From: a virus
DNA length: 24,053 nt
Strand: one strand, 5' to 3'
IMG/VR virus record: IMGVR_UViG_3300017593_000141
Coordinates: 1 to 24,053 of that record
This document shows positions 1-24,053 of the stretch, one piece after another (position 1 is the first letter of the stretch; the number at the start of each line of letters is the position of its first letter). A program made the translations under genes and the position numbers. The notes beneath the pieces are model-generated. The model worked only from the letters and a program-made list of their open reading frames with translations. It had not been told where the DNA came from and made no database searches.

Positions 1-1
1 C

Positions 2-1291: not shown

Positions 1292-1767
1292 TAAATAGAT
1301 TAACTCCTGAACAAATTTCTAAATTCTGGGATGTGATTAAATTCGCAGTTGAACAATCTCTGCCGCCAACTGTTGGTGAACATCCTGATAAAATGAACAG
1401 AATTTTAGCTGCAGCATTGAGTGGTAAGATAGATGTATGGGCGTCTTATACAAAGAATGAGAAGGTAAATAGATTTGAAGGAATAGTGCTTACAAAATTT
1501 CTATACGATGATGTTAGTGGAACAAAGAATATGTTAATATATTGTCTTTATGGTTATAGCAAGTTTGAGTCAACAAGTTGGAAAATTGGCTTGGAAACAT
1601 TTGCTAAGTATGCGAAATCTCGTGGATGTTCCAGGATTATAGCTTATACAGATATACCTTATATTGTTAACATAGTTAACAAATTAGGTGGTGAAGCTAA
1701 ATATATGTTTATTTCTTTTGATGTTAATAAGGTTGTTCAAAATTTAAACAATCTTGTTGAGGAATAA
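1288..1767 (+). CDS. GNAT-like acetyltransferase-fold phage protein
   Basis: 159 residues, translationally coupled to the upstream gene through an ATGA overlap. The C-terminal half (GCSRIIAYTDIPYIVNIVNKLGG and on) has the beta-strand, helix, beta-strand pattern of the GNAT N-acetyltransferase fold: a helix ending 'YAKSRGCSRI', a strand 'IIAYTD', then a helix 'IVNIVNKLGGEAK' and strand 'YMFISFDV'. A clear acetyl-CoA-binding Q/R-x-x-G-x-G/A loop is not obvious, so it may be a fold-only relative without catalysis. Proteins like this are often found between tail and internal virion genes in phages, where the role is unknown. The fold guess is fair; activity is not supported. Confidence 0.45.
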   Translation: MINRLTPEQISKFWDVIKFAVEQSLPPTVGEHPDKMNRILAAALSGKIDVWASYTKNEKVNRFEGIVLTKFLYDDVSGTKNMLIYCLYGYSKFESTSWKIGLETFAKYAKSRGCSRIIAYTDIPYIVNIVNKLGGEAKYMFISFDVNKVVQNLNNLVEE

Positions 1768-1772
1768 AGATT

Positions 1773-2729: not shown

Positions 2730-2737
2730 GAGGTTTT

Positions 2738-10380: not shown

Positions 10381-11257
10381 TTATGATATTCTCCAGAGAT
10401 TTATATGCACGAGTAGCTTCCATTTGAGTCGCTCCTCGATCTATGACATATTTACGTAGTTCTTTTTTAGTTGTCAAACCATTTAGTAATCCTTCTCGCA
10501 TGATAGATGTCCACATTTCTGATTTAGTTCCAGAGAATAACTTTACTTTAGATAATGATTTAAGTTCTTTAAAATTTACTATACCTTGGGATGTTAGTTC
10601 AAATGTTGCATCTGGAGATCTTTCAGTGTAGTTATGTTTTATATGGTGGATAGTTCTTAATCTTTCATTGTTGATGTCAGTTGTTAGAAATAACACAGAT
10701 CTGGACATGTCTACTACAGCAGCAGATCCGGTTATGTTATCTATGGATATTTGAGATATGTCATTTACTGCTTTGTTGGTATGGGCTAGTAGTAATAAAC
10801 CACAGTTTAGTTCTACAGATAATTCACGTAGTTCATTTATCAACGCACTACCGCCACGCCTTGATTCAATATCATAGCGGTTGTATAAAGAAGTCATACT
10901 GTCTATTATCAATAAATCAATGGTGTTTTTTAATCCTATGTCCCTTATTTCTTTAAATGTAGGCTTAACAGATTCATATTCACCAATGTTGTTTTTTTCC
11001 ACTGGGATTAACACATAGTCTTTAACATCTGCATATCCCCAGTCACGCCATCTTTGACTCATGTGTCGAGTTGTTTGTTCATAATCTACATAAAGTGTCT
11101 TGAATTTATTTTCTTTAGCGATTGTACTGGCTATGTATAAAGCAAGGCCAGACTTTCCAACACCACCTTTTGCGGCTAAGATGGTAACACAGCCCCTTGG
11201 AATATATTTCTTCCATATCCATTCATGATCTTTCATAGATTCTGAAACTTGTTGCAT
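10373..11257 (-). CDS. RepA-like hexameric helicase/AAA_25 ATPase
   Basis: 294 residues from the chosen ATG at 11257. A longer frame starts at 11272, but the GGAGGT at 11265-11270 overlaps that ATG and sits 7 bases before the ATG at 11257, so the shorter form is preferred. A RecA-type fold is clear: Walker A AKGGVGKS at residues 29-36, a strand YVDYEQ near 56-61, and Walker B DLLIIDS with D119. HIKHNYTERSPDATFEL later matches the end of the RepA/AAA_25 core. The C-terminus may be a helical wing (LLNGLTTKKELRKYVIDRGAT). Such proteins unwind DNA at the phage fork or load a helicase. It sits between polymerase and DUF3987 genes, supporting a replisome role. A Sak4/RecA-like recombinase is the main alternative. 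Confidence 0.75.
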   Translation of the reverse strand: MQQVSESMKDHEWIWKKYIPRGCVTILAAKGGVGKSGLALYIASTIAKENKFKTLYVDYEQTTRHMSQRWRDWGYADVKDYVLIPVEKNNIGEYESVKPTFKEIRDIGLKNTIDLLIIDSMTSLYNRYDIESRRGGSALINELRELSVELNCGLLLLAHTNKAVNDISQISIDNITGSAAVVDMSRSVLFLTTDINNERLRTIHHIKHNYTERSPDATFELTSQGIVNFKELKSLSKVKLFSGTKSEMWTSIMREGLLNGLTTKKELRKYVIDRGATQMEATRAYKSLENIINV

Positions 11258-11264
11258 GTTTAGT

Positions 11265-11270
11265 ACCTCC
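11265..11270 (-). promoter_or_regulatory. Ribosome binding site deciding the helicase start
   Basis: GGAGGT on the minus strand, 7 bases upstream of the ATG at 11257. It overlaps the alternative ATG at 11272-11270, which therefore has no such site in front of it. Confidence 0.75.
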
Positions 11271-11286
11271 ATTTGTACATTCCCCC

Positions 11287-11348
11287 ATGATATTGTTATT
11301 TATGATATTTTGATAATAACGTTAATATCATAATAACAAAAATATCAT
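11287..11348. repeat. AT-rich nested inverted repeat, candidate origin or operator
   Basis: Left arm 11287-11309 pairs with right arm 11324-11348 almost perfectly, apart from a two-base bulge and one extra T. The octamer ATGATATT occurs at 11287 and 11302 and its complement AATATCAT at 11324 and 11341, so four half-sites alternate with GTTATT/AATAAC units. TGTACA hexamers flank the structure at 11274-11279 and 11368-11373. The 92 bases between the polymerase stop and the helicase start are filled by it. The very AT-rich stem has no following T run on the minus strand, which argues against a simple terminator. An origin with iterons or a repressor operator fits better, by inference. Confidence 0.55.
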
Positions 11349-11364
11349 TACAAGCAAGACAATA

Positions 11365-13884: not shown

Positions 13885-13899
13885 TTAGAGTCTCCCATA

Positions 13900-13919
13900 G
13901 ATTATTTAATTTTTGAACA
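13900..13919. promoter_or_regulatory. GATTGTTYAAWTTTTGAAC element, copy 2
   Basis: Reads GATTATTTAATTTTTGAACA, ending about 15 bases before the polymerase ATG and just before its ribosome binding site. On the minus strand it is followed by AATCTATGGGAG, very like the sequence following copy 3. Confidence 0.5.
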
Positions 13920-13949
13920 TTCTTTTAAAAATCAATCCTTGAACATTCT
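13913..13949. repeat. Direct repeat TTGAACATTCT upstream of the polymerase gene
   Basis: The 11-base unit TTGAACATTCT is present at 13913-13923 and 13939-13949, 26 bases apart (about 2.5 helical turns). The first copy is part of the 20-base element at 13900-13919. The second lies in the frame-shifted tail of the methyltransferase gene. Related half-sites occur at other gene starts. Confidence 0.6.
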
Positions 13950-14012
13950 ATCGACTTTTACTATGAATGAATCTTTGTAGGATTTTCCTAGTTCAAAACC
14001 CACAGCGGCATT
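13932..14012 (-). pseudogene. Out-of-frame C-terminal tail of the ParB-methyltransferase gene
   Basis: In the -1 frame relative to the upstream gene, re-reading one base at codon 414 (GGA) gives Asn and then AAVGFELGKSYKDSFIVKVD and five more residues before a TGA at 13934-13932. G-F-E-L-xxx-Y is the normal closing segment of adenine/cytosine-N4 methyltransferases after the FxGSG motif. The in-frame product instead stops after the unrelated PLWVLN. A one-base deletion (for example a lost A in GGAAT), a sequencing error, or a frameshift during translation would explain it. No canonical slippery heptamer was found. Confidence 0.75.
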
Positions 14013-15253
14013 CCTAGTTTGTGTGCACTTATTAAACCATTACCTGAGCCAAGGAAAGGAATTAAAATTCTTGAACCGACAGGAGTGAAGGTTTCATAAA
14101 GATAATCTGTTAATTCAATAGGTCTTTCTGTCTCATGAGTTTTTTGACTGGGTGGAATAGGTGGATATTGAAAGATGTTTGACCTGCCAGGTTTATTAAG
14201 CGTCGGGCGACCTTTCCAAGCGTAGAAGAATAACTCATATGAATTAGCAAGATATATTTCTGGTCTTCTAGATTGACCTGTAGATTTAACCCAACAGCCA
14301 CACATTCTTGTAGTTGAAAAACCTGCATTTTTTATTTCTTGATAAACTACTTCAAACCAAGGTTCTGGAGCAAACCAGCAGATGAGCCAACTGTGGGGAG
14401 CCATAACTCGGTAACATTCACTTAGTAATTTTGACAAGAAAGTTTGATATTCATTAGCAGGTATTTCATTGTAGTTATTTGTTACATATTGAGATACACC
14501 AGTGGATTTTTTAACTTGTTTTAAATCAATAGCATAAGGCGGGTCTATTTCGACAAGGTGCATTACTTCATTAGGTATATCTTTTACACCTTCAAAAAAG
14601 TCTTTTAAGATAAAACTTCGAATGAGTTGCTGGAGCGTTGTGTTAGAATGTTGTTTTTCTATTTTCTGTGCTATGGTTTGCTTCAGTAATTCCTCATCGA
14701 GTTTTTTTAATACTTTTGTAGCATCACTTTGCGTTTTACAGTGTTCAAACAATTCAGGGACTGCCTCCATAGCTTCAGCACGTTTTATGGCTTGAGAGAC
14801 TGTAGCTTTGGAAACACCACCTATTAAATTGCCAGTGTCTTCAACTGACCAGCCAGAATTTCCAGGGCCTGGAGCTTTTACTCCATGAAGTTCTTGTTGA
14901 AGTTTGTGGATTTCAAGAGTTAGCTTATCTAACTCATACCACTCCATGTCTTTACGGAAAAAGTTTTCGGATTTTTCTATTACCTTCATCTCGATGTTTG
15001 AAAGATTTCTGTCGTAAATTCTAACAGGTACTTGTTTTACGTTGTTTTTCTTTAGTATTGTTAACCTGCGTTCGCCAGCGAGAAGAGTGTAAGTTCCATC
15101 GTTGTTATCTTTTACAGCAATAGGAGATATTAAACCACTTTCCTTCATATTCTGTTCAAGCGATTCAAGATCACCCATTTCCTTACGGGCACGATCTTTG
15201 ATTATTATAGAATTTGTGGGAACCATTCCTACCTTTCCAACTTTGATAGACAT
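13988..15253 (-). CDS. ParB-like nuclease domain fused to DNA methyltransferase, C-terminus frameshifted
   Basis: 421 residues as read, 440 if the frame is restored. Residues 1-105 are a ParB/Spo0J N-terminal domain with LLAGERRLTIL (GERR at 60-63). A helical, HTH-like part follows (SKATVSQAIKRAEAM, about 145-165). The second half is an amino-methyltransferase: motif IV D237-P-P-Y240 and, near the end, motif I FLGSG at 400-404, i.e. the permuted order in which the catalytic motif comes first. It would methylate adenine N6 or cytosine N4 at sites in phage DNA; the ParB part may read DNA or cleave it. The normal last strand and helix are shifted out of frame after residue 414, so the protein may be weakened. 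GGAGG precedes the ATG; a small basic gene ends 3 bases upstream. Confidence 0.85.
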   Translation of the reverse strand: MSIKVGKVGMVPTNSIIIKDRARKEMGDLESLEQNMKESGLISPIAVKDNNDGTYTLLAGERRLTILKKNNVKQVPVRIYDRNLSNIEMKVIEKSENFFRKDMEWYELDKLTLEIHKLQQELHGVKAPGPGNSGWSVEDTGNLIGGVSKATVSQAIKRAEAMEAVPELFEHCKTQSDATKVLKKLDEELLKQTIAQKIEKQHSNTTLQQLIRSFILKDFFEGVKDIPNEVMHLVEIDPPYAIDLKQVKKSTGVSQYVTNNYNEIPANEYQTFLSKLLSECYRVMAPHSWLICWFAPEPWFEVVYQEIKNAGFSTTRMCGCWVKSTGQSRRPEIYLANSYELFFYAWKGRPTLNKPGRSNIFQYPPIPPSQKTHETERPIELTDYLYETFTPVGSRILIPFLGSGNGLISAHKLGMPLWVLN

Positions 15254-15256
15254 TAG

Positions 15257-15460
15257 TTATTTACCTCCTAAAATGTTTAGAATTTCAAGTGCTTGTTTTT
15301 GTGAGATGTTTAAATTATCTTTTTTCTTTTTCTTTGTTATTTTCTTGCGTCTTTTTTCAGGGATACGACGTGATAAGCGAATTTGTCTGAGCATTTCAAT
15401 AGCTTCGTCAACAGACATTTCAGATATTGAAGAGTAATTTAAAGATTCTAAATCAGCCAT
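15257..15460 (-). CDS. Small basic phage protein, function unknown
   Basis: 67 residues. An acidic helix (SVDEAIEMLRQIRLSRR) is followed by a very basic stretch at about residues 36-48 (KRRKKITKKKKK) and a final helix (SQKQALEILNILGGK). This suggests contact with nucleic acid, but no known domain is recognised. AAGGAG lies before the ATG. It sits 3 bases before the ParB-methyltransferase gene and 4 bases after the upstream small gene, so the three probably share one mRNA and may act together. Confidence 0.6.
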   Translation of the reverse strand: MADLESLNYSSISEMSVDEAIEMLRQIRLSRRIPEKRRKKITKKKKKDNLNISQKQALEILNILGGK

Positions 15461-15464
15461 AGTT

Positions 15465-15710
15465 TTAATCTCCTTTTAATTGATCAACTTTGTTTAATGA
15501 AGGGAGGACTTTTCTAGGTTTTATTTTCCCACTTATTATTAAACCTATAGCCATACCTCCGTAGTCTTCGACTAAGTCAAGGACATCGTCTAAGATTATG
15601 TTAAATAGAGCTTTTCTTAGACCATAGGTTCCTAGTAATTTTTGAGTCCTAAGTTGCTGTTCTTGAGAAATTTCGAAACTGAATCTAGGAATATAATCTT
15701 CGTTTGACAT
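15465..15710 (-). CDS. Small conserved phage protein, possible ribbon-helix-helix regulator
   Basis: 81 residues. RFSFEISQEQQLRTQKLL followed by GLRKALFNIILDDVLDLVEDYGG and then GLIISGKIKPRKVLP fits a strand, helix, helix pattern, as in ribbon-helix-helix proteins, where the strand pair in a dimer reads DNA. The type is familiar from other phages, with no known function. A strong GGAGG lies 5-6 bases before the ATG, and a copy of the 20-base palindromic element lies directly upstream. That makes it one candidate for a regulator acting on these elements, though this is inference only. Confidence 0.55.
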   Translation of the reverse strand: MSNEDYIPRFSFEISQEQQLRTQKLLGTYGLRKALFNIILDDVLDLVEDYGGMAIGLIISGKIKPRKVLPSLNKVDQLKGD

Positions 15711-15725
15711 CTTTTGCCTCCAATA

Positions 15726-15745
15726 GATTGTTCAAAATTTGAACG
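15726..15745. promoter_or_regulatory. GATTGTTYAAWTTTTGAAC element, copy 3 (best palindrome)
   Basis: Reads GATTGTTCAAAATTTGAACG; its core GTTCAAA-A-TTTGAAC (15730-15744) is a perfect palindrome around one base. It fills most of the 38-base gap between the stop of the nucleotide-sugar enzyme gene and the ribosome binding site of the next gene. Confidence 0.6.
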
Positions 15746-15748
15746 ACC

Positions 15749-16921
15749 TTACCATTTTATTGTAGGGTTTATTACTTCTTTTTTTATCCTATCTTTGTAA
15801 TGAGATAGAGTTTTTAAAATCGAAGTTATTTCTGGTTCGAGGTAGGTAGTTGCTTTGTAACCTAAGGATTTTAAGTTATTATTTGAAGTGTTATAGTAAT
15901 GTTCTTCGAGTTCCTTTCTTGGATTTTTTAAGTAGTTTATTTCAAAAGATGTTTTTAAACCTAGTTCCAATGTACACTTTTTTACCAAAAATGCTAGGTC
16001 ATTGATATTATGAATAATAGCATATTGGTTAAAAGTTCTATATTCACCTTCTTTTGGAGGATTTTTTATAGCAAGAGTTATACAATTTAAGGAGTCTTTA
16101 AGAGTTAAAAATCCACGAGTTTGGTTTCCTCTTCCATAGATTGTTAAGGGATGATTTGATAAAACTTGTGCACAAAAACGATTTACTACAGTTCCAAAAC
16201 ATTGGTCGTAGTCAAAGCGAGTTATTTCCTCTATTGAATCGACATTGTTTAAGCCTATTACAATACCTTGCATTATGTCAGTGGAACGTAACTTCCAATT
16301 ACGGCAAGCGAATTCGATGTTATAAGTATCATGAACTTTTGAGAGGTGGTAAAAAGATCCAGGAATTCTAGGGAATAACAAACCTTGCATTGGACAGGTA
16401 ATGTTGTGATTTTTTAGACATTTTTCAGGAATTGTACCTTCTGGGATTGGACAGTTAGGAGTTCCATACTCGCCCATTGATCCTAATTTTATTAAGTGTG
16501 CTTTAGGACAATTTTTTCTTATAGCCCAAAGAAGTTGCAAAGTACCTATTGTGTTTCTTGTTTGTGTTTCAACAGAGTTGTAAACATCTTTCATTGACCA
16601 GGGCGCAGAAGGTTGCTCGGCAAGATGGACTATGGTGTCTGGTTCAAAAGATGCTAGAACGCTATTTATGTAATGGAAAGAGTCATTTCCAAGAGATAAA
16701 TCAACTTGGTCAATGAAATTAGGAAATGATTTTAAGTATTTAATTCTTTCAAATACATCGAGGATAGGTGTTAAAGAATCACTGCCGATTTTAGATACTC
16801 TTTCACGTCTGGAATAATCGTCTGCTCCAAATACTTTGAAATTTTCCTTTAGTAATTTAATGGTTAGAGCATAACCTATATATCCATCATTTCCGAGAAT
16901 TAAAATTTTATGATCTTTCAT
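15749..16921 (-). CDS. UDP-sulfoquinovose-synthase-like NAD-dependent epimerase/dehydratase
   Basis: 390 residues, an extended short-chain dehydrogenase. The NAD-binding GNDGYIG is at residues 10-16. Strong resemblance to the SQD1/UDP-sulfoquinovose synthase subgroup: LAEQPSAPWSM at 100-110, TQTRNTIGTLQLLWAI, LGSMGEYGTP at 146-155 (Ser148 where SQD1 enzymes have Thr), and FYHLSKVHDTYNIEFACRNW with the catalytic Y191 and K195. In plants, algae and bacteria these enzymes turn UDP-glucose and sulfite into UDP-sulfoquinovose for sulfolipids. In this phage the product may instead go to a surface glycan or to DNA; a different nucleotide sugar is possible. ATG overlaps the dCMP deaminase stop by 4 bases (ATGA), so the two are coupled. 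Confidence 0.8.
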   Translation of the reverse strand: MKDHKILILGNDGYIGYALTIKLLKENFKVFGADDYSRRERVSKIGSDSLTPILDVFERIKYLKSFPNFIDQVDLSLGNDSFHYINSVLASFEPDTIVHLAEQPSAPWSMKDVYNSVETQTRNTIGTLQLLWAIRKNCPKAHLIKLGSMGEYGTPNCPIPEGTIPEKCLKNHNITCPMQGLLFPRIPGSFYHLSKVHDTYNIEFACRNWKLRSTDIMQGIVIGLNNVDSIEEITRFDYDQCFGTVVNRFCAQVLSNHPLTIYGRGNQTRGFLTLKDSLNCITLAIKNPPKEGEYRTFNQYAIIHNINDLAFLVKKCTLELGLKTSFEINYLKNPRKELEEHYYNTSNNNLKSLGYKATTYLEPEITSILKTLSHYKDRIKKEVINPTIKW

Positions 16922-17460
16922 ATTTCAAAACTCCTTATTTTTATACCTGATTCTTTACACAGAATTTCAGAATAATTATCGTAAAATTTTTCTTCAGTTA
17001 CTACAATTTCCTTCACTCCGGCGTTTATGAGAGTGCCTAGGCATCTTTGACAAGGGATTATGGAGTTTAGATATAAAGTGCTATTGAATATATATACTCC
17101 ATTTTTAGCTGCATTAGTTACAGCATTTTCTTCTGCATGTTGGGCTAAACAATATCGTAGACCTTCACCACTTTTATACGCCATCAAGCGTCGTGGACAA
17201 GTGTTGGAGATTACATCTTCAGGAAATAACTCTTTTAAATCAGGGAGATTTTTATCTTTTAAAGCACGTTCTTTTCCACAGTGGAAAATTCCAGAAGGAG
17301 GGCCATTGTAGCCTGTTGATAAAATTGTGTTGTTTTTAGCTATTACAGCACCTATTTTTCGAGATAAGCAGGGTGACCTTAAAGATATAGTGTTACAAAG
17401 TTTGTAAAAATAACTGTCCCATTTAGAGTTAGGTGTTTTTGGAGAATTTAAATTATTCAT
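16918..17460 (-). CDS. dCMP deaminase (ComEB-like deoxycytidylate deaminase)
   Basis: 180 residues. The zinc-binding cytidine deaminase motifs are complete: H108-A-E110 in the segment LAQHAEENAV and P-C137-Q-R-C140. YNGPPSGIFHCG near residues 50-61 and the CPRR segment before the HAE motif are typical of deoxycytidylate deaminases, which often carry extra zinc ligands. It converts dCMP to dUMP and so feeds thymidylate synthesis; the phage carries no visible thymidylate synthase in this window. AAGGAG precedes the ATG, and the gene is coupled to the sugar enzyme gene through an ATGA overlap. With the NTP-pyrophosphohydrolase-like gene upstream it forms a nucleotide-pool group. Confidence 0.92.
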   Translation of the reverse strand: MNNLNSPKTPNSKWDSYFYKLCNTISLRSPCLSRKIGAVIAKNNTILSTGYNGPPSGIFHCGKERALKDKNLPDLKELFPEDVISNTCPRRLMAYKSGEGLRYCLAQHAEENAVTNAAKNGVYIFNSTLYLNSIIPCQRCLGTLINAGVKEIVVTEEKFYDNYSEILCKESGIKIRSFEI

Positions 17461-17479
17461 TGTTTACTCCTTAATAAAT

Positions 17480-17893
17480 TTAAGAATTGGGATTTAAGGT
17501 AGATGACATCAATGTGATGTTTTCTGCGTTTATAGTAGATTCTTCATCATATAGAGCAGAAACTATCAATGAATATAAAGCATTGTCTAATAAAGTGTCC
17601 TTGAAAGACTCTTCTTTTACAAGCTGTTTTTTCCTCAATAGAGATCTCAATCGTCCCCATTTGTCTGTCATTCGTATAAAAGCACCGAACCAAGCTGGGA
17701 TGTTTGTTATTTGAGATGAAAACTCGAAATTCCCCATAGGGTTATCGACACCATAGTCGTGGCTCTTCTTAGCGTGGGTTTGAATGAGTTTTCCGATTAG
17801 CGTGTAAATTTTATGATGTCCAGGGAAATCCTTGTCCATGTCTATAGATATTTTATCTTTTCCCAGGTCATAGTTTATAGAAATCTTACTCAT
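17480..17893 (-). CDS. All-alpha NTP-pyrophosphohydrolase-like protein (DUF1599/Nmad1-like)
   Basis: 137 residues, mostly helical. The order K-x-x-D-Y-G (KKSHDYG), then PAWFGAFIRMTDKWGRLRSLL, then EESFKDTLLDNALYSLIVSAL resembles the DUF1599 or 'nucleotide modification associated domain 1' family of the MazG/dUTPase-like all-alpha superfamily, where E-x-x-x-D and D-x-x-x-Y residues bind metal and nucleotide. It probably hydrolyses a (d)NTP to the monophosphate, perhaps dCTP to dCMP, which would supply the deaminase next door. That substrate is a guess. GAGGT precedes the ATG. It starts after a gap holding a promoter-like sequence, a hairpin and a copy of the 20-base element, so it may begin a transcript. 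Confidence 0.65.
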   Translation of the reverse strand: MSKISINYDLGKDKISIDMDKDFPGHHKIYTLIGKLIQTHAKKSHDYGVDNPMGNFEFSSQITNIPAWFGAFIRMTDKWGRLRSLLRKKQLVKEESFKDTLLDNALYSLIVSALYDEESTINAENITLMSSTLNPNS

Positions 17894-17914
17894 TGATTTT
17901 TACCTCGTTAATGA

Positions 17915-17944
17915 ATTATCTACCAATGCCACATTGAGTGGCAA
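17915..17944 (-). promoter_or_regulatory. Candidate sigma70-type promoter with overlapping inverted repeat
   Basis: On the minus strand, TTGCCA (17944-17939) and GATAAT (17920-17915) are 18 bases apart. The -35 lies in the hairpin TGCCAC-5-GTGGCA (17927-17943), a possible operator or RNA hairpin. The start would fall near 17908, leaving a leader of about 15 bases before the ATG at 17893, short but workable. Confidence 0.4.
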
Positions 17945-17949
17945 AGGCA

Positions 17950-17969
17950 GATTGTTTAAAAATTGAATT
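17950..17969. promoter_or_regulatory. GATTGTTYAAWTTTTGAAC element, copy 4
   Basis: Reads GATTGTTTAAAAATTGAATT, in the same register and orientation as the other copies. It lies in the 82-base gap between the putative ssDNA-binding protein gene and the NTP-pyrophosphohydrolase-like gene, just upstream of the candidate promoter. Confidence 0.5.
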
Positions 17970-17975
17970 AACTGG

Positions 17976-18395
17976 TTATCTTGGAGCTATGTATTTTGTA
18001 ACAGTGTTTTGTTCCCCGTAGTCATCATCTTTCTTTATCCCAAGAATTACCCAGCCTTCGAGACCAATAAGATCATCAGTCCAACTGAAAGGTTTTGTAT
18101 AGTCAATACCAAAAGCATCGGCAAAAGTTTTGAATTTATAGACGGAACGCTGAGCATTTTTTTCATCAAGTTTACTTGCATCTGCGAGATCCCAGAAGAA
18201 ATCCCTAAACTCAATCACCATTGGGTCGTCAGGTACGTCGAAAACAGGCATGTACCAATGAGCTCCGTTTTTGTCGGAGATTCCTTCATTTACATTGATG
18301 ATTCTGGCCTTTACCTCTGAACCACGAGGAAGAACTTTTGGCTCAGGTGCTTCTGCTATTGCTTGCTCAAGATCGGAGTAATCGACTAAAGACAT
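17976..18395 (-). CDS. DUF669-like putative single-stranded DNA-binding protein
   Basis: 139 residues. RGSEVKARIINVNEGISDKNG followed by WYMPVFDVPDDPMVIEFRDFFW and a final TVTKYIAP strand fits an OB-fold-like beta layout. The family is like phage DUF669 proteins, which often sit next to Sak4-type ATPases and are thought to bind single-stranded DNA. The acidic tail typical of SSBs is not clear. GGAGG precedes the ATG. It follows the unknown helical gene and the Sak4-like ATPase gene, consistent with a recombination or replication partner. The fold and role are inferred from pattern and context. Confidence 0.6.
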   Translation of the reverse strand: MSLVDYSDLEQAIAEAPEPKVLPRGSEVKARIINVNEGISDKNGAHWYMPVFDVPDDPMVIEFRDFFWDLADASKLDEKNAQRSVYKFKTFADAFGIDYTKPFSWTDDLIGLEGWVILGIKKDDDYGEQNTVTKYIAPR

Positions 18396-18425
18396 AATTT
18401 TTGCCTCCTTTTTAAAATAAGTTTT

Positions 18426-18704
18426 TTAAAGTTCCAAGTTTTTCAACATCCAAGATAACATAGCATTGGCTAGGGATATTTTGTTACTAATGTCATGGAT
18501 ATTTTCTGCTAATGGGACAAGGTTTGAAATATCTTCTTTGATGTCATCTTCTGGAAATTTAACTAATTTTAATACTGGACTGATAGATGATCTTAGTTGT
18601 TCTATGTAGTTTAAGAGATCATCTACACCATTTAACAAACGTGTTAATTCAGAAGATACTTGTGGAGCTTTAGGACTTTCACATGATATACAATTTTCTT
18701 CCAT
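18426..18704 (-). CDS. Unknown helical phage protein
   Basis: 92 residues, nearly all helical with heptad-like spacing of Leu/Ile (SELTRLLNGVDDLLNYIEQLRSSI, then DISNLVPLAENIHDISNKISLANAML). A CISC motif at the N-terminus (residues 5-8) could bind metal or be chance. AAAGGAG lies 9 bases before the ATG. The reading frame stays open upstream of the ATG for 22 codons without a normal start, in the frame +1 from a two-codon minigene. No family recognised. Its position between the Sak4-like ATPase and the DUF669-like gene suggests a recombination accessory. Confidence 0.55.
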   Translation of the reverse strand: MEENCISCESPKAPQVSSELTRLLNGVDDLLNYIEQLRSSISPVLKLVKFPEDDIKEDISNLVPLAENIHDISNKISLANAMLSWMLKNLEL

Positions 18705-18759
18705 TGTAAATTTCTCCTTTAAGTTAAATATCTTTGATAAAAAGTTATTTAGTAATTTA

Positions 18760-18768
18760 CTAATCCAT
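18760..18768 (-). other. Two-codon minigene ATG GAT TAG behind a perfect Shine-Dalgarno
   Basis: On the minus strand GGGAGGT (18783-18777) sits 8 bases before ATG-GAT-TAG. The ribosome binding site is among the best in the window but leads only to Met-Asp. If one base were missing after the ATG, the frame would run on as ISKLLNNFLSKIFNLKEKFT into the next gene, so this may mark an eroded or frameshifted start, a regulatory minigene, or chance. Confidence 0.4.
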
Positions 18769-18799
18769 AGCTAATCACCTCCCTTAGTATTTAAAAAAG

Positions 18800-19624
18800 T
18801 TAATCAATTTTCAAAGGTGGCTTATCATCCCATTTTAAGCCAGCTTTTCTCAACAAACCTTTTATATTAGGTTCTTCGACAGAAGATAGTTTACTGTTAG
18901 CTTTGAGTCTAGAACGGGCGATATAAGTACCGGAAGAATCTATGAGCATTTTCCTTTTTAACCCTCTTGGAGATTCTTCAGCGATTAATACATAGATTTC
19001 ATCGAAAAGTAAAGGTATTGTTACTACAGCTTGACCAGTGGTGTAGAAACGGTATTTTATGTTTTTTCTAGTTATGCCAGTTTTTAGGTCTACACTTATT
19101 TTATCTTCGATTGCTCGCAAGTGGCCAGTTAAGATGAAATCGCAAGGGATGGACATTAATTTCTTTATATAATTAACCATCATAGTTTTTTGTGGCATGT
19201 AGTCTTTGCCCCAGTTAGGTGCTTCACCTGCCTGTCCACGTGAATTTAGTTGATAGTTCATTATAGCATCTCCGAATGTTGTAGCACTGTCGATACAGTA
19301 AGTTCCAAAATGATCGAAGTAGTTTAACCTCATTCGGAGGTCAACAGTTTTCATCCATTCTGCGAATTTGTTTGGCTTTAATGGATCATCAGATTCCCAC
19401 TGTGTATCGGCAATTACTTCACCTTTTTCAATCAAGTCTCGAAGGCACTTTGTTCCACCAGGGTCGAAAGAATCTATGTGAATAGGCTTGCGGGCAGTTC
19501 TTAATAAATAAGTTTTTCCAGCATTAGTTTCTCCAGTTATTAGGGCACTAAAGCGCTTTTGTAACGGGTCGCCTTCGTAGTAAGACTTTACTTTTTTTAA
19601 CTCGTTCATGTAATCATAAGGCAT
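18800..19624 (-). CDS. Sak4-like AAA ATPase, putative single-strand annealing/recombination protein
   Basis: 274 residues. Walker A GETNAGKT at residues 31-38 begins a short RecA-like core, followed by PIHIDSFDPGG, a strand YCIDSATTFGDAI (Walker B-like) and FILTGHLRAIED (a sensor-like Gln/His region). This is the phage nucleotide-binding AAA_24/Sak4 type, which helps anneal or pair DNA strands with an SSB. C-terminal residues are basic (RKAGLKWDDKPPLKID). AAGGAG lies 9 bases before the ATG. Next to a RecB/Cas4-like nuclease and a DUF669-like protein it makes a plausible recombination set: resect, coat, anneal. The exact activity is inferred. Confidence 0.75.
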   Translation of the reverse strand: MPYDYMNELKKVKSYYEGDPLQKRFSALITGETNAGKTYLLRTARKPIHIDSFDPGGTKCLRDLIEKGEVIADTQWESDDPLKPNKFAEWMKTVDLRMRLNYFDHFGTYCIDSATTFGDAIMNYQLNSRGQAGEAPNWGKDYMPQKTMMVNYIKKLMSIPCDFILTGHLRAIEDKISVDLKTGITRKNIKYRFYTTGQAVVTIPLLFDEIYVLIAEESPRGLKRKMLIDSSGTYIARSRLKANSKLSSVEEPNIKGLLRKAGLKWDDKPPLKID

Positions 19625-19654
19625 TTTTTTCTACTCCTTTTTAATCATTACTTA

Positions 19655-20638
19655 TTACCAAGTTAGATTCTTTTCCACTGAAGATTCTATTTTTGAAGGA
19701 TCCCAGAATTCAACTTTAAATCCAATAGGTGGTTCTTCACACCGTTGTAGTGGATTAGGCCAGGAGATACAATAGTCGTGAAAAGCACAGCCGAAGTATT
19801 TAGTGCAATTATTAGGCCTCATTGGAAAAGACATTAGAATAGATTCATTTTCAGAAGATTCGAATAATCTATTCATTTCCCTTTCGATGGAATCTAGAAT
19901 GTCAACAACTGTCCATAACCAAGTGTTCATTTGATCAGGTGTTTTAAATGCAGGGACTCGTTCTAAAGTTATGTTATAACCTTTTGAATTTTTAGAACCG
20001 CCACGAGTTAGGTAAGAAAAACTTGTTCCACAGAATTCTACGCCTAAGACTTGTTCGATAGGGAACATACAATAAAGGCAGTGTGTGTAAGTTCCGTTTT
20101 GAATACTTAGTTGAAACTTATCACGCCAAAATCTGGAGAACCTTTTCGCTGATTTATGATCCCAAGAGAAAATCTTACCATCGGACTTTCTTCTCATGAT
20201 TGAATCAAGGCGATAATGAAGGACACGTTTAGAATCGACTGGAACAGTTCCGGAAATTTCCAGCATTTTTGTTCCATCTATTTCAACAACCTCGTTTTCG
20301 ATTAAGTCGGAAGAACGTTCTTCAGAAAATTTCATTAAAGCATTTAATACACCAGTTGGGTCTTTTGGTCGGTAAAGATTGTCCGTGTCAGGTGGAAATT
20401 CTTTCCGATAGTGTTCGATAAAAGCGTTGTAGGCACCTTCTATATCATTGTAGCCGTAGCGAAGTTGATGTTCCCTGGCCTTGTGCCAAGATTCACCAAA
20501 GTAAGCATCGTGATTTGGTAAGTTTAATTTCCAACCTAGGATGTGTTCAAAGAAATATTTTCTTGGACAATCAAGGAAAGTTTCTATCTTTGAAGAGTCT
20601 ATTATTTTCCACTCTTTTTGTTCTTTTAAAGGAATCAT
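19655..20638 (-). CDS. PD-(D/E)XK nuclease of the RecB/Cas4 type
   Basis: 327 residues. KIETFLDCPRKYFFEHI at the N-terminus is the usual RecB/Cas4/AddB opening with Cys24. The catalytic part is W-D160-H-K162 followed by Q180-N-G-T-Y184 (QxxxY), the RecB-family active site. Three cysteines near the C-terminus (NCTKYFGCAFHDYC, spaced C-x5-C-x5-C) together with Cys24 could hold an iron-sulphur cluster as in AddB and Cas4, with unusual spacing. It would degrade DNA ends or make 3' or 5' overhangs for the Sak4-like ATPase. GAGGT lies 7 bases before the ATG. The gene's first 68 bases overlap the preceding small gene. No Cas1/Cas2 or array is present, so a CRISPR role is not suggested. Confidence 0.82.
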   Translation of the reverse strand: MIPLKEQKEWKIIDSSKIETFLDCPRKYFFEHILGWKLNLPNHDAYFGESWHKAREHQLRYGYNDIEGAYNAFIEHYRKEFPPDTDNLYRPKDPTGVLNALMKFSEERSSDLIENEVVEIDGTKMLEISGTVPVDSKRVLHYRLDSIMRRKSDGKIFSWDHKSAKRFSRFWRDKFQLSIQNGTYTHCLYCMFPIEQVLGVEFCGTSFSYLTRGGSKNSKGYNITLERVPAFKTPDQMNTWLWTVVDILDSIEREMNRLFESSENESILMSFPMRPNNCTKYFGCAFHDYCISWPNPLQRCEEPPIGFKVEFWDPSKIESSVEKNLTW

Positions 20639-20807
20639 TTTTTACCTCGTTTAAAAGTTTTATGTCCATTAGATCGGACGTTAAGGAAATTATCTGATTG
20701 GATAAAGTTGTTAGTAATTTGGAAGTTTCGTCAGTTTTAGACTCATTGTGAAGTTTTAGTACCAAAGCATTCTTTCGCCACTTTCTTAGTTTCCTTTCTG
20801 AAATCAT
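20571..20807 (-). CDS. Small conserved-looking basic phage protein
   Basis: 78 residues: MISERKLRKWRKNALVLK, then a helical stretch ending LNEVKNDSFKRTKRVENN. Proteins beginning with this 'ISE-KLR-WRK-AL' sequence are familiar from other phages but have no known role. AAGGGAG lies about 9 bases before the ATG. The last 68 bases overlap the nuclease gene in another frame. This is unusually long for this window, so either the 3' tail is an extension through a lost stop or the frame is shifted. Without this gene a 184-base gap would be left, which supports it being real. Confidence 0.55.
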   Translation of the reverse strand: MISERKLRKWRKNALVLKLHNESKTDETSKLLTTLSNQIISLTSDLMDIKLLNEVKNDSFKRTKRVENNRLFKDRNFP

Positions 20808-20822
20808 TTCTTTTTTACTCCC

Positions 20823-21113
20823 TTAAAATATGTGGTTTCTTTCTACATAATGCCCGCTTTTGAATAATAAGAGGTTTAATCTCTTATGTTTTGCAGCGAA
20901 AATTGCACATGCTAAAGAATTCATTATGTTTAGAGAGCAAGGGACTATATAATCATCTGGTTTTGAATTCTTTAAAACGTCATTGAAGGTTCTAACCATG
21001 TTGTTTGTAGCGTAGCGATTCATAGAACCACTTGAGAGATAGATTAACTTTCCGAATTTTTCAGCAGGTGAAAAATCATGGGAAGATTTATTTACTATAT
21101 ATACATTAGGCAT
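20823..21113 (-). CDS. Conserved-looking phage protein, function unknown
   Basis: 96 residues from ATG 21113. A longer frame begins at a GTG (21122), but GGAGGT at 21126-21121 lies 7 bases before the ATG and overlaps that GTG, so the ATG is chosen. The sequence PNVYIVNKSSHDFSPAEKFG, then NRYATNNMVRTFNDVL, PDDYIVPCSLNIMNSLACAI and LLLFKSGHYVER looks like a compact alpha/beta domain common among uncultivated phages, without known activity. The stop of the zinc-ribbon gene lies 2 bases before this start. Confidence 0.55.
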   Translation of the reverse strand: MPNVYIVNKSSHDFSPAEKFGKLIYLSSGSMNRYATNNMVRTFNDVLKNSKPDDYIVPCSLNIMNSLACAIFAAKHKRLNLLLFKSGHYVERNHIF

Positions 21114-21114
21114 T

Positions 21115-21468
21115 TTAATCACCTCCGAAGTTATCTATGTTGTGAGAAGGAGTGGTATTGGTAAGTGATTTAAGTTGGTTTAGCAAAGTTTGAGGAGCTA
21201 TAGTTTTATTGTTTTTAGGTTCTTCATTTTCTGGTTCTTCAATGTTGAAAGTTTTTGGTTTATCAAGTTTGTTTAAATTTTGAATGAACTTGTTTTTTTC
21301 CTTGTGTTCAATAAAGGTTGGAACATCTATTGGTGACAAGTCGAATTCCACAGGTGTTTCAGAACACTCGTGGTATTCTACGATGTTTATTATTCTTTTA
21401 AATTTTTTGAGAGCTACTCGTTTTACATTCAAGCGTTTTCCGCAGTTGCTACAATATACAGTTTTCAT
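21115..21468 (-). CDS. Zinc-ribbon-like phage protein
   Basis: 117 residues. CSNCGKRL at residues 6-13 is a zinc-knuckle, followed by helix-like KRVALKKFKRIINIVEYHECSE with a His-x-Cys pair that could complete a zinc site. The middle EFDLSPIDVPTF and a long charged, Asn/Glu/Lys-rich tail (residues 60-117) are probably disordered. Such small ribbon proteins often join protein or DNA complexes in phages. GGAGG lies 5 bases before the ATG. A weaker copy of the 20-base element lies in its coding sequence at 21267-21286. Function unknown. Confidence 0.6.
   Translation of the reverse strand: MKTVYCSNCGKRLNVKRVALKKFKRIINIVEYHECSETPVEFDLSPIDVPTFIEHKEKNKFIQNLNKLDKPKTFNIEEPENEEPKNNKTIAPQTLLNQLKSLTNTTPSHNIDNFGGD
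21121..21126 (-). promoter_or_regulatory. Ribosome binding site deciding the start at 21113
   Basis: GGAGGT on the minus strand, 7 bases before the ATG at 21113. It overlaps the alternative GTG start at 21122-21120 and lies in the final codons of the zinc-ribbon gene. Confidence 0.7.
21267..21286. promoter_or_regulatory. GATTGTTYAAWTTTTGAAC-like element, intragenic copy
   Basis: Reads GTTTGTTTAAATTTTGAATG, in register with the other copies and in the same orientation; only the second position clearly departs. It lies in the middle of the zinc-ribbon gene, coding for part of FIQNLNKL. In AT-rich coding DNA this could be chance. Confidence 0.25.
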
Positions 21469-21480
21469 TTCTTCCTCCTT

Positions 21481-21693
21481 TTAATCACTTGAGTCAATGT
21501 TGTAGTAATATTTACAAACAAGGCAAGTAACACGTGTTAAGCATTTGCCAGTTTCTTCAATAATTAATGGATGATTTTGTTTTTCGCAGTTTATTACATC
21601 TTCTGGTTTATGTGTGAATCTCCAGCCATTTGCATAGCCGAAGTAAGTGAAGGTTTTTAAGTGGTTATTGTTAGTTGATTGTTCCAAAGTCAT
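21481..21693 (-). CDS. Small phage protein with paired cysteines
   Basis: 70 residues. Cysteines at C-x15-C and then TCLVC (CxxC) with neighbouring histidines could form a zinc finger: INCEKQNHPLII, then GKCLTRVTCLVCKYYYNID. The N-terminal half has YFGYANGWRFTHKPEDV. GAGGA lies 7 bases before the ATG. It sits between the HIRAN gene and the zinc-ribbon gene. The pattern of a strand, CxxC and aromatic residues is like a small zinc ribbon, but no family is recognised. Confidence 0.5.
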   Translation of the reverse strand: MTLEQSTNNNHLKTFTYFGYANGWRFTHKPEDVINCEKQNHPLIIEETGKCLTRVTCLVCKYYYNIDSSD

Positions 21694-21706
21694 TTTATTT
21701 TCCTCT

Positions 21707-22042
21707 TTAAATTTCTCTTACTATAACTTTACACATTTCCCAAGGTTTTGCTGAAGGTGTTAGTTCGACTATTTTGCATTCTAACTCAGTTAATGTAATT
21801 ATAGCGCTTATTTCAGAACTTAATCTTTTTGGAACATATCCTAGGTTATAGGTGTTTTTTGAAGGATCTACAAAAATAATTTGAATGGCATTAGGATCGA
21901 AATTGTTAGTAGGTTCGGGAACAAGGTCTAGTTTTGTACCTTGTTTGATGTCAACTTTAGATTTAACCAGAGATGGTAATCTATGGTATTGAACACCTGC
22001 AATGTAAAACTCTTTTTCATATTTATTGGTTTCATTTTCCAT
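21707..22042 (-). CDS. Stand-alone HIRAN-domain protein
   Basis: 111 residues, almost the whole length a HIRAN domain: FYIAGVQYH near the start, GTKLDLVPEPTNNFDPNAIQI in the middle, LGYVPKRLSSEIS and a final strand CKVIVRE. HIRAN domains (named from HIP116 and Rad5) bind 3' ends of single-stranded DNA at forks and usually sit on helicases or nucleases; here the domain stands alone. It lies next to the DNA ligase and upstream of the nuclease and Sak4-like genes, consistent with fork or end recognition. AGAGGT lies 8 bases before the ATG. Confidence 0.8.
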   Translation of the reverse strand: MENETNKYEKEFYIAGVQYHRLPSLVKSKVDIKQGTKLDLVPEPTNNFDPNAIQIIFVDPSKNTYNLGYVPKRLSSEISAIITLTELECKIVELTPSAKPWEMCKVIVREI

Positions 22043-22071
22043 AATTTTTTACCTCTTTTAATAATTAATAG

Positions 22072-22905
22072 TTATTTTTCTATACTTACAAAAACAGGAA
22101 ATCTTGGCACTCTTTTTCCTGAAGTTAAATGTTGATAGGTTATAACACAAGTTTTTCCAACAAGTGTTTCACGTTCTTGCCATAATTTATGACGTTGTTC
22201 TTCAGTGAAACCAGTTCCTACATTAAAAGTCTGGCCATCACCACTTGAGCATACCAAAGAGCCGAGTGAATTCTTTGGAATTCCTTCATTGGAAAATTCT
22301 TCGGCAAAACCAACTATTTTATAACTGTCTTTTTTCTTAGGTTTAAATTTCATAATGTATGTACTACGCTTTCGTTCATAAGGACATTGGAAATGCCTTA
22401 CAATTATTCCTTCATAGTTATTGTTTATAAGTTTGTCATAAACCCTCATAATTTCACTTAAATTATTACATATCCAGAAAGGTGAAACTATTATGTTTTT
22501 GTCTAGATTTTTTAACTTCTCTATTGTTAATAATCTGTTTGATTGAAGTTCTTTATTTACTACGTCAAAGATATGGAATTGAATGCTTTTGTAATTAGGG
22601 TGTAAATTAACAGTGCGAGAAGTTATAGAGGAAATTTCTTCAAACCTCATTCCGTGACAATAAAGCTCGCCATCGAGTTCTAGGTTTACATGGAGTTTGT
22701 CCAAAGATTGATTTATATGAGGGACAGAAAAGATGATGTTTTCCTCGCTTGAAAGTAATAGATAATTACCATTGATGTTAATAGCTCGACAACGAACTCC
22801 GTCGTATTTAGGTTGGACTATGTAAGGAGGTTGCCATTTGTTTAAGCGTTTTTCTTCAAATGGATAGCATTTTAGTATGTTTTTCCATCTTTGCCAATTA
22901 CTCAT
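22072..22905 (-). CDS. ATP-dependent DNA ligase
   Basis: 277 residues from the ATG at 22905; a longer frame starts at 22938, but AAGGAGGT at 22920-22913 sits 7 bases before the ATG at 22905, so the shorter start is chosen. Motifs in order: K33-Y-D-G (adenylated lysine, motif I), ELDGELY (III), YEGIIVRH (IV) and MKFKPKK (V); the OB-fold half follows with GSLVCSSGDGQTFNVGTG and VITYQHLT. This is the usual minimal nucleotidyltransferase plus OB layout of phage ligases. It seals nicks in phage replication and recombination. It overlaps the upstream gene's end by 8 bases, and the HIRAN gene follows. Confidence 0.93.
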   Translation of the reverse strand: MSNWQRWKNILKCYPFEEKRLNKWQPPYIVQPKYDGVRCRAININGNYLLLSSEENIIFSVPHINQSLDKLHVNLELDGELYCHGMRFEEISSITSRTVNLHPNYKSIQFHIFDVVNKELQSNRLLTIEKLKNLDKNIIVSPFWICNNLSEIMRVYDKLINNNYEGIIVRHFQCPYERKRSTYIMKFKPKKKDSYKIVGFAEEFSNEGIPKNSLGSLVCSSGDGQTFNVGTGFTEEQRHKLWQERETLVGKTCVITYQHLTSGKRVPRFPVFVSIEK

Positions 22906-23368
22906 TTGAAGAACCTCCTTTTCCACTTTTGTTTCCACAGTCTATTAAATATTCGTATTCAGGAACTTCTTCGATAATAGTTTTTTCTATACATATTTTT
23001 CTTCCAGTTGGAATGGAAATGATTTTGCAAGAGTTGAATTTATTACAGTGGATTGTAATGAAGATGATTATTTGACTTGATTCGCTTTTGTTTATGTATT
23101 TAGTAGCATTATAAATGACTTCGTTTTCATCTACTGTTTTATTCCATTTTAGATTTAAAGTAGAACTTAAATGTGTTAGTTTGAGTTCTACATTTTCAAT
23201 ATCTTGGTTGTAAATGTTTAGAAATACAGAATCTGGGTATATTAAGCCAGATACTTCGCCCAAGTTGTTTTGTAATTCTTGGATGTAAAAATCAATTAAT
23301 TTTTCAGTTTTTATAACTTCCTTGAATTCCTTAGTTCTTTTCCTTATTCTTTCTTTTAAATTTTCCAT
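22898..23368 (-). CDS. Unknown phage protein
   Basis: 156 residues from the ATG at 23368, preceded by AAAGGG about 9 bases before it; an earlier TTG at 23416 would add 16 residues but lies inside the palindromic operators and is rejected. The protein has a helical start (MENLKERIRKRTKEFKEVI), then a beta-rich part (VSGLIYPDSVFLNIYN, IIIFITIHCNKFNSCKIISI) and a disordered Gly/Ser-rich end. Two cysteine pairs are present without a clear zinc pattern. No family is recognised. It is followed directly by the ligase gene (8-base overlap). Confidence 0.55.
   Translation of the reverse strand: MENLKERIRKRTKEFKEVIKTEKLIDFYIQELQNNLGEVSGLIYPDSVFLNIYNQDIENVELKLTHLSSTLNLKWNKTVDENEVIYNATKYINKSESSQIIIFITIHCNKFNSCKIISIPTGRKICIEKTIIEEVPEYEYLIDCGNKSGKGGSSNE
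22913..22920 (-). promoter_or_regulatory. Ribosome binding site deciding the ligase start
   Basis: AAGGAGGT on the minus strand, 7 bases before the ATG at 22905, in the end of the upstream gene. The longer ligase frame starting at 22938 lacks such a site. Confidence 0.75.
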
Positions 23369-23395
23369 TCTTTTATTTCCCTTTATTGTTAAAAA

Positions 23396-23415
23396 GATCG
23401 TTAAATTTTTGAACA
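23396..23415. promoter_or_regulatory. GATTGTTYAAWTTTTGAAC element, copy 5
   Basis: Reads GATCGTTAAATTTTTGAACA, upstream of the unknown gene starting at 23368. It overlaps the long palindrome at 23408-23428, making a compound site. Confidence 0.5.
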
Positions 23416-23428
23416 AACTTTGTTCAAA
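23408..23428. repeat. 21-base perfect palindrome TTTGAACAAA-C-TTTGTTCAAA
   Basis: Ten bases, one centre base and ten complementary bases pair without a mismatch. Its TTTGAACAAA half is shared with the other TTGAACA sites. A dimeric DNA-binding protein could use it; it is also too AT-rich and lacks a T run to act as a terminator by itself. Confidence 0.75.
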
Positions 23429-23457
23429 GCACTTCTTTTCACATTTTTGGTGAGATA

Positions 23458-23489
23458 AAATCCTCTGAGATTGAATTCTCAGAGGATTT
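23458..23489 (-). terminator. Intrinsic terminator hairpin after gene 23506-23883
   Basis: A 13-base-pair stem (arms 23458-23470 and 23477-23489, core TCCTCTGAGA/TCTCAGAGGA) closes a six-base loop. In the minus direction it follows the last gene's stop by 16 bases and is followed by TTTTATCT; in the plus direction a run of T at 23494-23500 follows. It could terminate in both directions and separates the first gene from the rest of the block. Confidence 0.8.
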
Positions 23490-23505
23490 AAAATTTTTTT
23501 AAATG

Positions 23506-23883
23506 TTATGCCGCAGCAGCCCTTTTCTGAAGTTCGGCAAGAAGTTTTTTCTGATCTTTTGGCGTTGACGATTGAAACTTGGCGAGGAAGGCCTGCACAG
23601 GATCGATCTTTGCACCTTTAACACTTACACCCATTTTAGCGTCTTTCAGACGTTCTTGAATCTGCTGAGGAGTTTCACCTCTTTTGAGTCCTCCCCTTAT
23701 GTTACTCTGGAGAGTTACCCGCCAATTGGCGATAGCATTGGAGAGAACTGCTTCTCCTCCATAGGCCTTGATGGCTTCTTCAACAGTTTCAGGCATAGGG
23801 ATTTCGACCGATGCTACCAAGTCCTTTACAATACCCTTTTTTTCATTTCTGGGCACTTTCGCACTCACTATTTCTTTCTTCAT
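23506..23883 (-). CDS. Conserved-looking small phage protein with own promoter and terminator
   Basis: 125 residues. After a charged N-terminus come VEEAIKAYGGEAVLSNAIANWRV, then NIRGGLKRGETPQQIQERL, VKGAKIDPVQAFLAKFQSSTPKDQKKLLAELQKR and an alanine tail. It is helical, and similar proteins ('GGE--L--A-AN----Q---R--L--G' and 'DP--AFLAKF---') are familiar from many phages, with no known role. Base composition is visibly richer in G and C than its neighbours, which may reflect strong expression or a different origin. GGAGG lies 7-8 bases before the ATG, and a strong promoter and terminator bracket it as a single-gene unit. Confidence 0.6.
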   Translation of the reverse strand: MKKEIVSAKVPRNEKKGIVKDLVASVEIPMPETVEEAIKAYGGEAVLSNAIANWRVTLQSNIRGGLKRGETPQQIQERLKDAKMGVSVKGAKIDPVQAFLAKFQSSTPKDQKKLLAELQKRAAAA

Positions 23884-23919
23884 TTTTTAATCCTCCTTAG
23901 AAAAGTTAATATTAAATAA

Positions 23920-23939
23920 TTGTTAAATAATGTTAACAA
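23920..23939. repeat. Inverted repeat over the -10 of the early promoter
   Basis: TTGTTAA (23920-23926) and TTAACAA (23933-23939) pair across six bases and cover the -10 element of the promoter at 23930-23958. With the TTGAACA pair over the -35 it makes a plausible operator set. Confidence 0.5.
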
Positions 23940-23958
23940 TAGTTTGTTCAAATGTCAA
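23930..23958 (-). promoter_or_regulatory. Strong sigma70-type promoter for gene 23506-23883
   Basis: On the minus strand TTGACA (23958-23953) and TAACAT (23935-23930) are 17 bases apart, a near-perfect arrangement. The start would fall near 23923, giving a leader of about 40 bases ahead of the ATG at 23883. The -35 and -10 are both overlapped by inverted repeats. Confidence 0.7.
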
Positions 23959-23982
23959 CGGAATTTTTTACACATTTGAACA
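23945..23982. repeat. 11-base perfect inverted repeat TGTTCAAATGT/ACATTTGAACA over the promoter
   Basis: TGTTCAAATGT at 23945-23955 and ACATTTGAACA at 23972-23982 are exact complements 16 bases apart. The left arm overlaps the -35 box; the right arm lies upstream of it. The TGTTCAAA core is the same as in the 20-base elements, tying this promoter to them. Confidence 0.75.
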
Positions 23983-24040
23983 CAGATGAATATAACTAAA
24001 ATCGTTAACGTTAGAGTTAGACAATACAAAGTTTTTTCTC

Positions 24041-24046
24041 ACCTCC
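24041..24046 (-). promoter_or_regulatory. Unassigned Shine-Dalgarno sequence at the window edge
   Basis: GGAGGT on the minus strand with no ATG or GTG at a normal distance after it. The nearest TTG, 11 bases on, opens only a 24-codon hydrophobic frame. The remaining bases between 23884 and the right edge hold the promoter and repeats listed, and no gene. Confidence 0.35.
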
Positions 24047-24053
24047 TTTTTTT

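Follow-up and report, generated by a model that had tools for sequence, protein, structure and literature searches.

Evenly dispersed palindromes near an ordinary early promoter as probable loading sites of a phage ParB-HTH-methyltransferase fusion

Introduction

The ParB-parS and Noc-NBS systems combine a ParB N-terminal fold, which carries the motifs GERR and ENxxR, with a helix-turn-helix (HTH) domain and a palindromic site beginning with GTT. Noc sites are many and dispersed. Plasmid RK2 carries several KorB operators on one replicon. These dispersed operators act at a distance, and KorB, also a member of the ParB family, is a repressor with KorA as partner. The identity of contact residue 173 tracks base 1 of the site: R173 of ParB bonds guanine 1, and the glutamine at this position in Noc reads adenine 1 (PMC7383237). 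KorB has been described as a CTPase clamp whose operators can lie up to 1.5 kb away from the promoters it acts on (PMC11790492).

Fusions of a ParB-CTPase fold with an N6_N4 DNA methyltransferase are enriched in phages, and a function in anti-defence was suggested (PMC12704722). No target is known for this architecture: the sections of that report available to us describe no DNA site, and no description of DNA sites for phage ParB-methyltransferases was found in the open-access literature searched. The sole annotated near relative of the phage studied here is the Desulfofustis phage OP947158.1 (L173). The paper that describes this phage states that it was not possible to predict recognition sequences for its divergent phage methyltransferases (PMC10370329). 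The stoperators of cluster A mycobacteriophages are likewise dispersed and lineage-specific, and most are not at promoters. They are asymmetric, mostly in one orientation, and are bound by the immunity repressor of temperate phages (PMC6550527).

This study concerns a window of phage DNA, i.e. the whole analysed stretch of 24,053 bases of an IMG/VR record. It encodes a ParB-HTH-methyltransferase fusion with a domain architecture identical to that of the known phage fusions and carries an array of palindromes. In comparison with ParB-parS and Noc-NBS, a C-terminal methyltransferase takes the place of the dimerisation domain, and the palindrome is odd, with a central base, and evenly spaced over the phage genome. 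A search for a ParA-type ATPase (PF13614) found none in 16 genomes. For this reason a partition system was set aside, and the system is filed as a variant of ParB-parS/KorB-OB-like systems. Unlike the operators of KorB, which carries no such methyltransferase, the sites lie after stop codons and inside genes and none is on the early promoter. We consider it likely that the promoter is an ordinary one, that its repeats are no conserved switch, and that the palindromes are the cognate, parS-like sites of the fusion, which would load there as a clamp. We propose here the array and its evolution in step with the HTH, which would provide a direct target for an architecture that had none and a new example of an entire collection of sites evolving together with the helix that reads it.

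Genome organisation

A plus-strand gene block occupies positions 1-9161; three of its proteins were searched and had no PHROG match. Early and replication genes are encoded on the minus strand (9118-23883), including DNA polymerase, primase, a helicase-like protein, ligase, dCMP deaminase, a Sak4-like protein and an exonuclease. The first early gene (23506-23883, minus strand) codes for 125 amino acids and is found throughout the phage group. A family search with it had no match, and a single-sequence search with gene 1 of the window recovered only the near-identical twin contig (L003/G001). A terminator-like hairpin follows downstream of the gene (23458-23489). Rfam and tRNA searches of the window gave no match.

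None of 16 genomes searched had a tyrosine integrase. Regulation as in a prophage was set aside on this result, and the phage group is presumably virulent. Six relatives came from bacterial genome collections; their contigs of 5-48 kb look like whole or partial phages.

Early promoter and inverted repeats

An earlier note on this DNA described a near-consensus early promoter wrapped in two inverted repeats, which looked like a regulated switch. The promoter is present on the minus strand (23958-23930), with the -35 hexamer TTGACA at 23958-23953, a spacer of 17 bp and the -10 hexamer TAACAT at 23935-23930. The hexamers have 10 of 12 matches and TG precedes the -10. Among 17 promoter-like matches in 20000-24053, it is the joint best; shuffles give 13.9 matches. 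Its assignment to the first gene of the early block was borne out by the relatives, where the same promoter type precedes the homologues: a TTGACA-N16-18-TATAAT-like promoter lies 75-206 bp before gene-1 homologues in 43 of 46 loci; among the three loci lacking it, the upstream sequence of L195 is just 23 bases long. A promoter score of at least 10 was reached in 25 of 26 contigs, the exception being G037. This score alone is not rare in shuffles (up to 13 of 40), so a conserved box immediately upstream of the -35 is the better evidence of promoter conservation. The box at 23959-23977 (minus strand; consensus AAaTgtaCcAAa.att.C, in the window AAATGTGTAAAAAATTCCG) is UP-element-like by inference. 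Judged by its sequence, with hexamers 16-18 bp apart, a position before a gene and conservation as in sigma-70-type promoters, the interval is a host-type (sigma-70-like) early promoter with a conserved upstream box.

A possible hydrophobic mini-ORF of 24 codons with a TTG start overlaps this region (23955-24029, minus strand). Its stop lies within the -35, and a GGAGGTG-like site is located upstream. By eye, a comparable small peptide of membrane-like character is encoded at this position in G002.

The letters of both inverted repeats were verified. The 7-bp repeat TTGTTAA/TTAACAA (23920-23926/23933-23939, spacer 6) extends across the -10 to about +1. The exact 11-bp repeat TGTTCAAATGT/ACATTTGAACA (23945-23955/23972-23982, spacer 16) lies at and beyond the -35, with the half-site TGTTCAAA in each arm. 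The repeat at the -10 is nothing special, because the window has 36 exact 7-bp repeats with a spacer of up to 10, close to the mean of 33.9 in 10 shuffles. Four exact 11-bp repeats with a spacer of up to 30 were counted, three belonging to one terminator hairpin at 23458 and one to the promoter. As 20 shuffles average 0.95, the 11-bp repeat alone is not significant.

The relatives conserve the promoter and mostly not the repeats, the pattern that the note itself had named as refuting its switch; it applies fully to the -10 repeat and almost fully to the 11-bp repeat. Within 26 contigs, repeats of at least 8 bp near the promoter were present in the window, its twin and G016 only, and the half-site TGTTCAAA at the promoter was limited to the window and its twin. 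On this comparison of sequences, the two inverted repeats do not form a conserved switch. The 11-bp repeat had also been thought to share its core with 20-base elements. This applies only to a half-site; the promoter region scores 4.8 bits at best, which ranks 26th in the window, against 17.4-25.8 bits for eight real sites.

The 11-bp repeat may still be a true operator of some regulator in individual lineages, as the note had proposed. We regard this as rather unlikely and keep it in consideration because of G016 (L178), which has a perfect repeat, GTGGTTTATTTGT-16-ACAAATAAACCAC, in the same register and with the same spacer as in the window, in other letters. Its length is 11-13 bp. A partial analogue is present in L215. 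Among 34 related promoters, with redundancy removed, three had at least 9 of 11 pairs at spacer 16, compared to 1.07% of 1122 combinations with arms swapped between them. Two of the 34 were perfect, with differing letters, and no arm swap reached 11 pairs. Against an operator, the repeat is missing from 31 of these 34 promoters and is not rare by count in the window. Some of the symmetry is also inherent in conserved sequence, the TGT box lying opposite the ACA of the -35: even with swapped arms, an average of 4.92 pairs is seen at spacer 16.

Dispersed palindromes

Starting from the core common to the promoter repeat, a 19-bp odd palindrome was found in eight copies in the window, with the form TYGTTYAAA-N-TTTRAACRA. 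An extended 25-bp form, AGWTYGTTYAAANTTTRAACRAWCT, was seen by eye. The copy nearest to the promoter is at 23398-23416 (20.6 bits). The following ones are located within a 117-aa gene (21269-21287, 21.2 bits), 6 bp from a stop codon (17952-17970, 17.8 bits), 3 bp past a stop codon and 18 bp ahead of the next start (15728-15746, 25.8 bits), before the DNA polymerase gene (13902-13920, 17.4 bits), at convergent gene ends (9163-9181, 19.9 bits), within a 1758-aa gene (5450-5468, 23.7 bits) and close to the end of a plus-strand gene (1733-1751, 24.3 bits). All are candidate sites of the ParB-methyltransferase.

Matches to TTGTTYAAANTTTRAACAA with up to three mismatches numbered 15 in G002, 16 in G003, 13 in G004, 12 in G009 and 0 in G008; the reversed pattern gave none in all 10 records. 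A de novo search of 45 contigs required at least six copies and a count above all five shuffles. Of the 18 contigs with a length of 35 kb or more, 16 had a dispersed odd palindrome by this criterion. The words vary by lineage and include GTTYAAA, ATTAAAT, GTTTAAT, GTTAAWT, TTTAAAT and others. The palindromes of G029 were detected only by a wider search, and no array was found in G045, a contig of at least 35 kb, though the fusion is present. In several short contigs, de novo searching was unsuccessful. OP947158 has nine sites of the form TGTCCCAA-N-TTGGGACA.

Sixteen near-complete relatives have 9-23 palindromes per genome, about one per 2-3 kb and frequently 2-4 bp past a stop codon. After overlapping matches had been collapsed, 14 of the 16 genomes showed a spacing more even than a null model with matched gene boundaries (CV p ≤ 0.05), and random placement was also beaten; these genomes share ancestry and are not 16 independent tests. 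The two misses, G012 and G013, are close kin. By the longest gap, the spacing was more even than the same null in 11 of 16 genomes. Non-coding DNA comprises 9.1% of the genomes and contains 186 of 292 sites.

A function as elements of gene starts or ribosome binding was rejected, as 106 of the 292 sites are within genes. RNA hairpins were rejected as the main reading. At sites with an assignable transcribed strand, non-Watson-Crick symmetric positions comprised 204 C/A, 146 G/U and 325 others, so wobble is not favoured.

The ParB-HTH-methyltransferase fusion

The fusion of 421 amino acids is encoded on the minus strand (13988-15253) and consists of a ParB N-terminal domain, an HTH and an N6/N4 DNA methyltransferase. 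The ParB domain matches PF02195 above the cut-off (E 1.2e-9), and an hhalign comparison with three bacterial ParBs gave a probability of 99.1, with the HTH aligned. GERR is at position 60 and ENFFR at 96, followed by DPPY at 237 and FLGSG at 400. The NTP-binding motifs of boxes II and III are thus present (GERR and ENFFRKD), the second residue of the first varying between E and G. In 35 sequences, R61, R62, E95, N96 and D236-P-P-Y239 are invariant (numbered as in the first sequence, initiator methionine omitted). The recognition helix covers residues 149-164 and starts with K149; in the model, where the initiator methionine is absent, it is numbered 148-163.

The methyltransferase matches PF01555 (E 9.7e-13) and has the motifs and the fold of the beta class of N6/N4 enzymes. 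An AlphaFold model of the fusion was of moderate quality (pLDDT 73.5, pTM 0.46). Structure matches to MboIIA, CcrM and RsrI had Z values of 18-21 among the matches listed. The 50 listed VIA structure matches were taken up by the methyltransferase, with ParB and Noc chains not among the matches listed; Foldseek lists ParB/Noc chains for the model. The homologue in OP947158.1 (10342-11634) is 41.6% identical and annotated as 'ParB-like partition protein'.

Pairing of sites and fusion

Contigs were also collected by the DNA pattern alone. This search gave 47 stretches, and exclusion of second stretches of the same contig and of contigs already known as relatives left 35 contigs with one stretch each. 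Twelve of these are at least 30 kb long. The fusion was encoded in all six with at least three sites and in none of the six with one or two sites, a distribution expected once in 924 by chance. The six contigs with a fusion (G009, G051, G052, G055, G065 and G068) have 3-13 sites and fusions of 30-63% identity. The fusion was detected in none of the 23 shorter contigs; three of these, G050, G074 and G077, have at least three sites and may be fragments of relatives.

Site bases were compared with 2068 alignment columns of 18 proteins in 21 representative genomes. The outermost base, -7, is G in 14 genomes and not G in seven. Its best association was with the K149 column of the fusion: lysine is present in 13 of the 14 G genomes and in none of the seven others (p 6.9e-5). 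This value fails a Bonferroni correction over 2068 columns (0.14), and the association counts because the top column is a known ParB contact: it aligns with R/Q173 of ParB. Within the close family, the outermost base of the palindrome thus covaries with the residue equivalent to ParB R173. A neighbouring column ranked fourth for G at -7 and second for A at -4. All five ATTAAAT-type genomes of the set have TDAS at the K149 position, including G026, whose protein is otherwise nearest to G004. OP947158 obeys the rule with lysine and G. G023, with proline, is the exception within the 21 genomes. Six further GTT-type contigs, five distant ones and G068 (63% identity), have proline or valine instead of lysine, and the rule therefore holds only in the closest relatives.

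In G042, a motif chosen by the recognition helix found eight sites, whereas the de novo search found none and the motif of the nearest protein 0. Leave-one-out transfer of motifs was weak, with the helix-nearest choice (mean rank 6.16) hardly better than the protein-nearest choice (6.76). A window-wise distance test placed the recognition helix first within the fusion, yet 16th of 3449 overall. Stretches of p117, which itself encodes a site, a nuclease, the primase and one stretch of a conserved 81-aa protein ranked above it. This Mantel-type test had first been run with two outlier genomes; neither that run nor the repeat without them singled out the fusion helix. Taken together, the pairing of sites and fusion is well supported by these sequence comparisons.

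Proposed mechanism and alternatives

A dimer of the fusion would bind the palindromes via its HTH. By analogy with ParB, Noc and KorB, nucleotide binding would close the dimer as a clamp able to slide away from the site, and the even spacing would let clamps reach the entire genome. The methyltransferase carried along could modify the phage DNA during the slide, most plausibly as a countermeasure to host restriction. Even spacing is what a sliding enzyme would need, and regulation of a promoter would not need it. A more far-reaching version, a 'methylating clamp', is tentative and in our estimate somewhat less probable than not. In this version, an NTP-driven ParB-type clamp loads at the evenly spaced palindromes and slides between them while its methyltransferase protects the whole phage genome. 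The modification would be set by the loading sites and not by a short recognition sequence, and the mark would stay private to its own genome, as each lineage would alter all of its 9-23 sites in step with the specificity of its clamp. A virus might in this way mark its own DNA by position.

Alternatively, the fusion could be a long-range regulator like KorB, with clamps sliding from the sites to silence the early promoter late in infection and a secondary role for the methyltransferase. In its favour are the range known for KorB (PMC11790492) and the distance of the nearest site to the early promoter in the 24 of 26 contigs with a site model (225-1576 bp, mostly 340-700 bp; in the window 551 bp downstream); KorB is also a weak match of the fusion profile (E 0.0013). 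Silencing of one promoter needs neither even spacing over the genome nor sites in plus-strand genes, and no site overlaps the early promoter. We therefore assign this explanation a low probability.

The sites could also belong to the 81-aa protein mentioned above instead of the fusion. Its gene (15465-15710, minus strand) is near the fusion gene in relatives, and by eye the small protein is ribbon-helix-helix-like. One of its columns leads for T at -1 (p 5.2e-4), and one of its stretches ranked just above the fusion helix in the distance test. Ownership by this protein is quite improbable: it was not detected in G009 and G044, which carry arrays and the fusion, and it provides none of the top eight columns for bases -7 or -4.

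The nonspecific nicking reported for a ParB-methylase of Bacillus cereus (PMC5512222) is a precedent for a ParB part that acts as a site-loaded nickase, aiding replication or degrading DNA, with methylation marking self. Nonspecific nicking leaves the even spacing and the pairing of HTH and sites unexplained, and the G(E/G)RR and ENxxR motifs of the fusion are those of NTP-binding ParBs, which makes a nickase very improbable. Least probable are stoperator-like roadblocks, at which a phage repressor on dispersed sites would halt elongation and confer immunity: the sites are indeed dispersed, mostly intergenic and lineage-specific, and sites and repressors co-diverge in cluster A phages as well (PMC6550527), yet the sites are palindromic and not oriented like stoperators, the 16 genomes searched had no tyrosine integrase, and the six relatives from bacterial collections look like phages.

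The twin contig L003 runs about 2.6 kb past the right end of the window, and three further features were seen by eye in this contig. A second promoter-like sequence, TTGACA-17-TAATGT, precedes the early gene cluster that comes next outside the window (887-950). A nested inverted repeat at 750-800, AAGTTGTTTAAA ... TTTAAACAACTT around GACCATTCAAATTTTAAACGGTC, resembles a dispersed site within a larger palindrome. The left end of the contig (1-330) has a tandem duplication of about 240 bases, which could be an assembly artefact or a terminal repeat.
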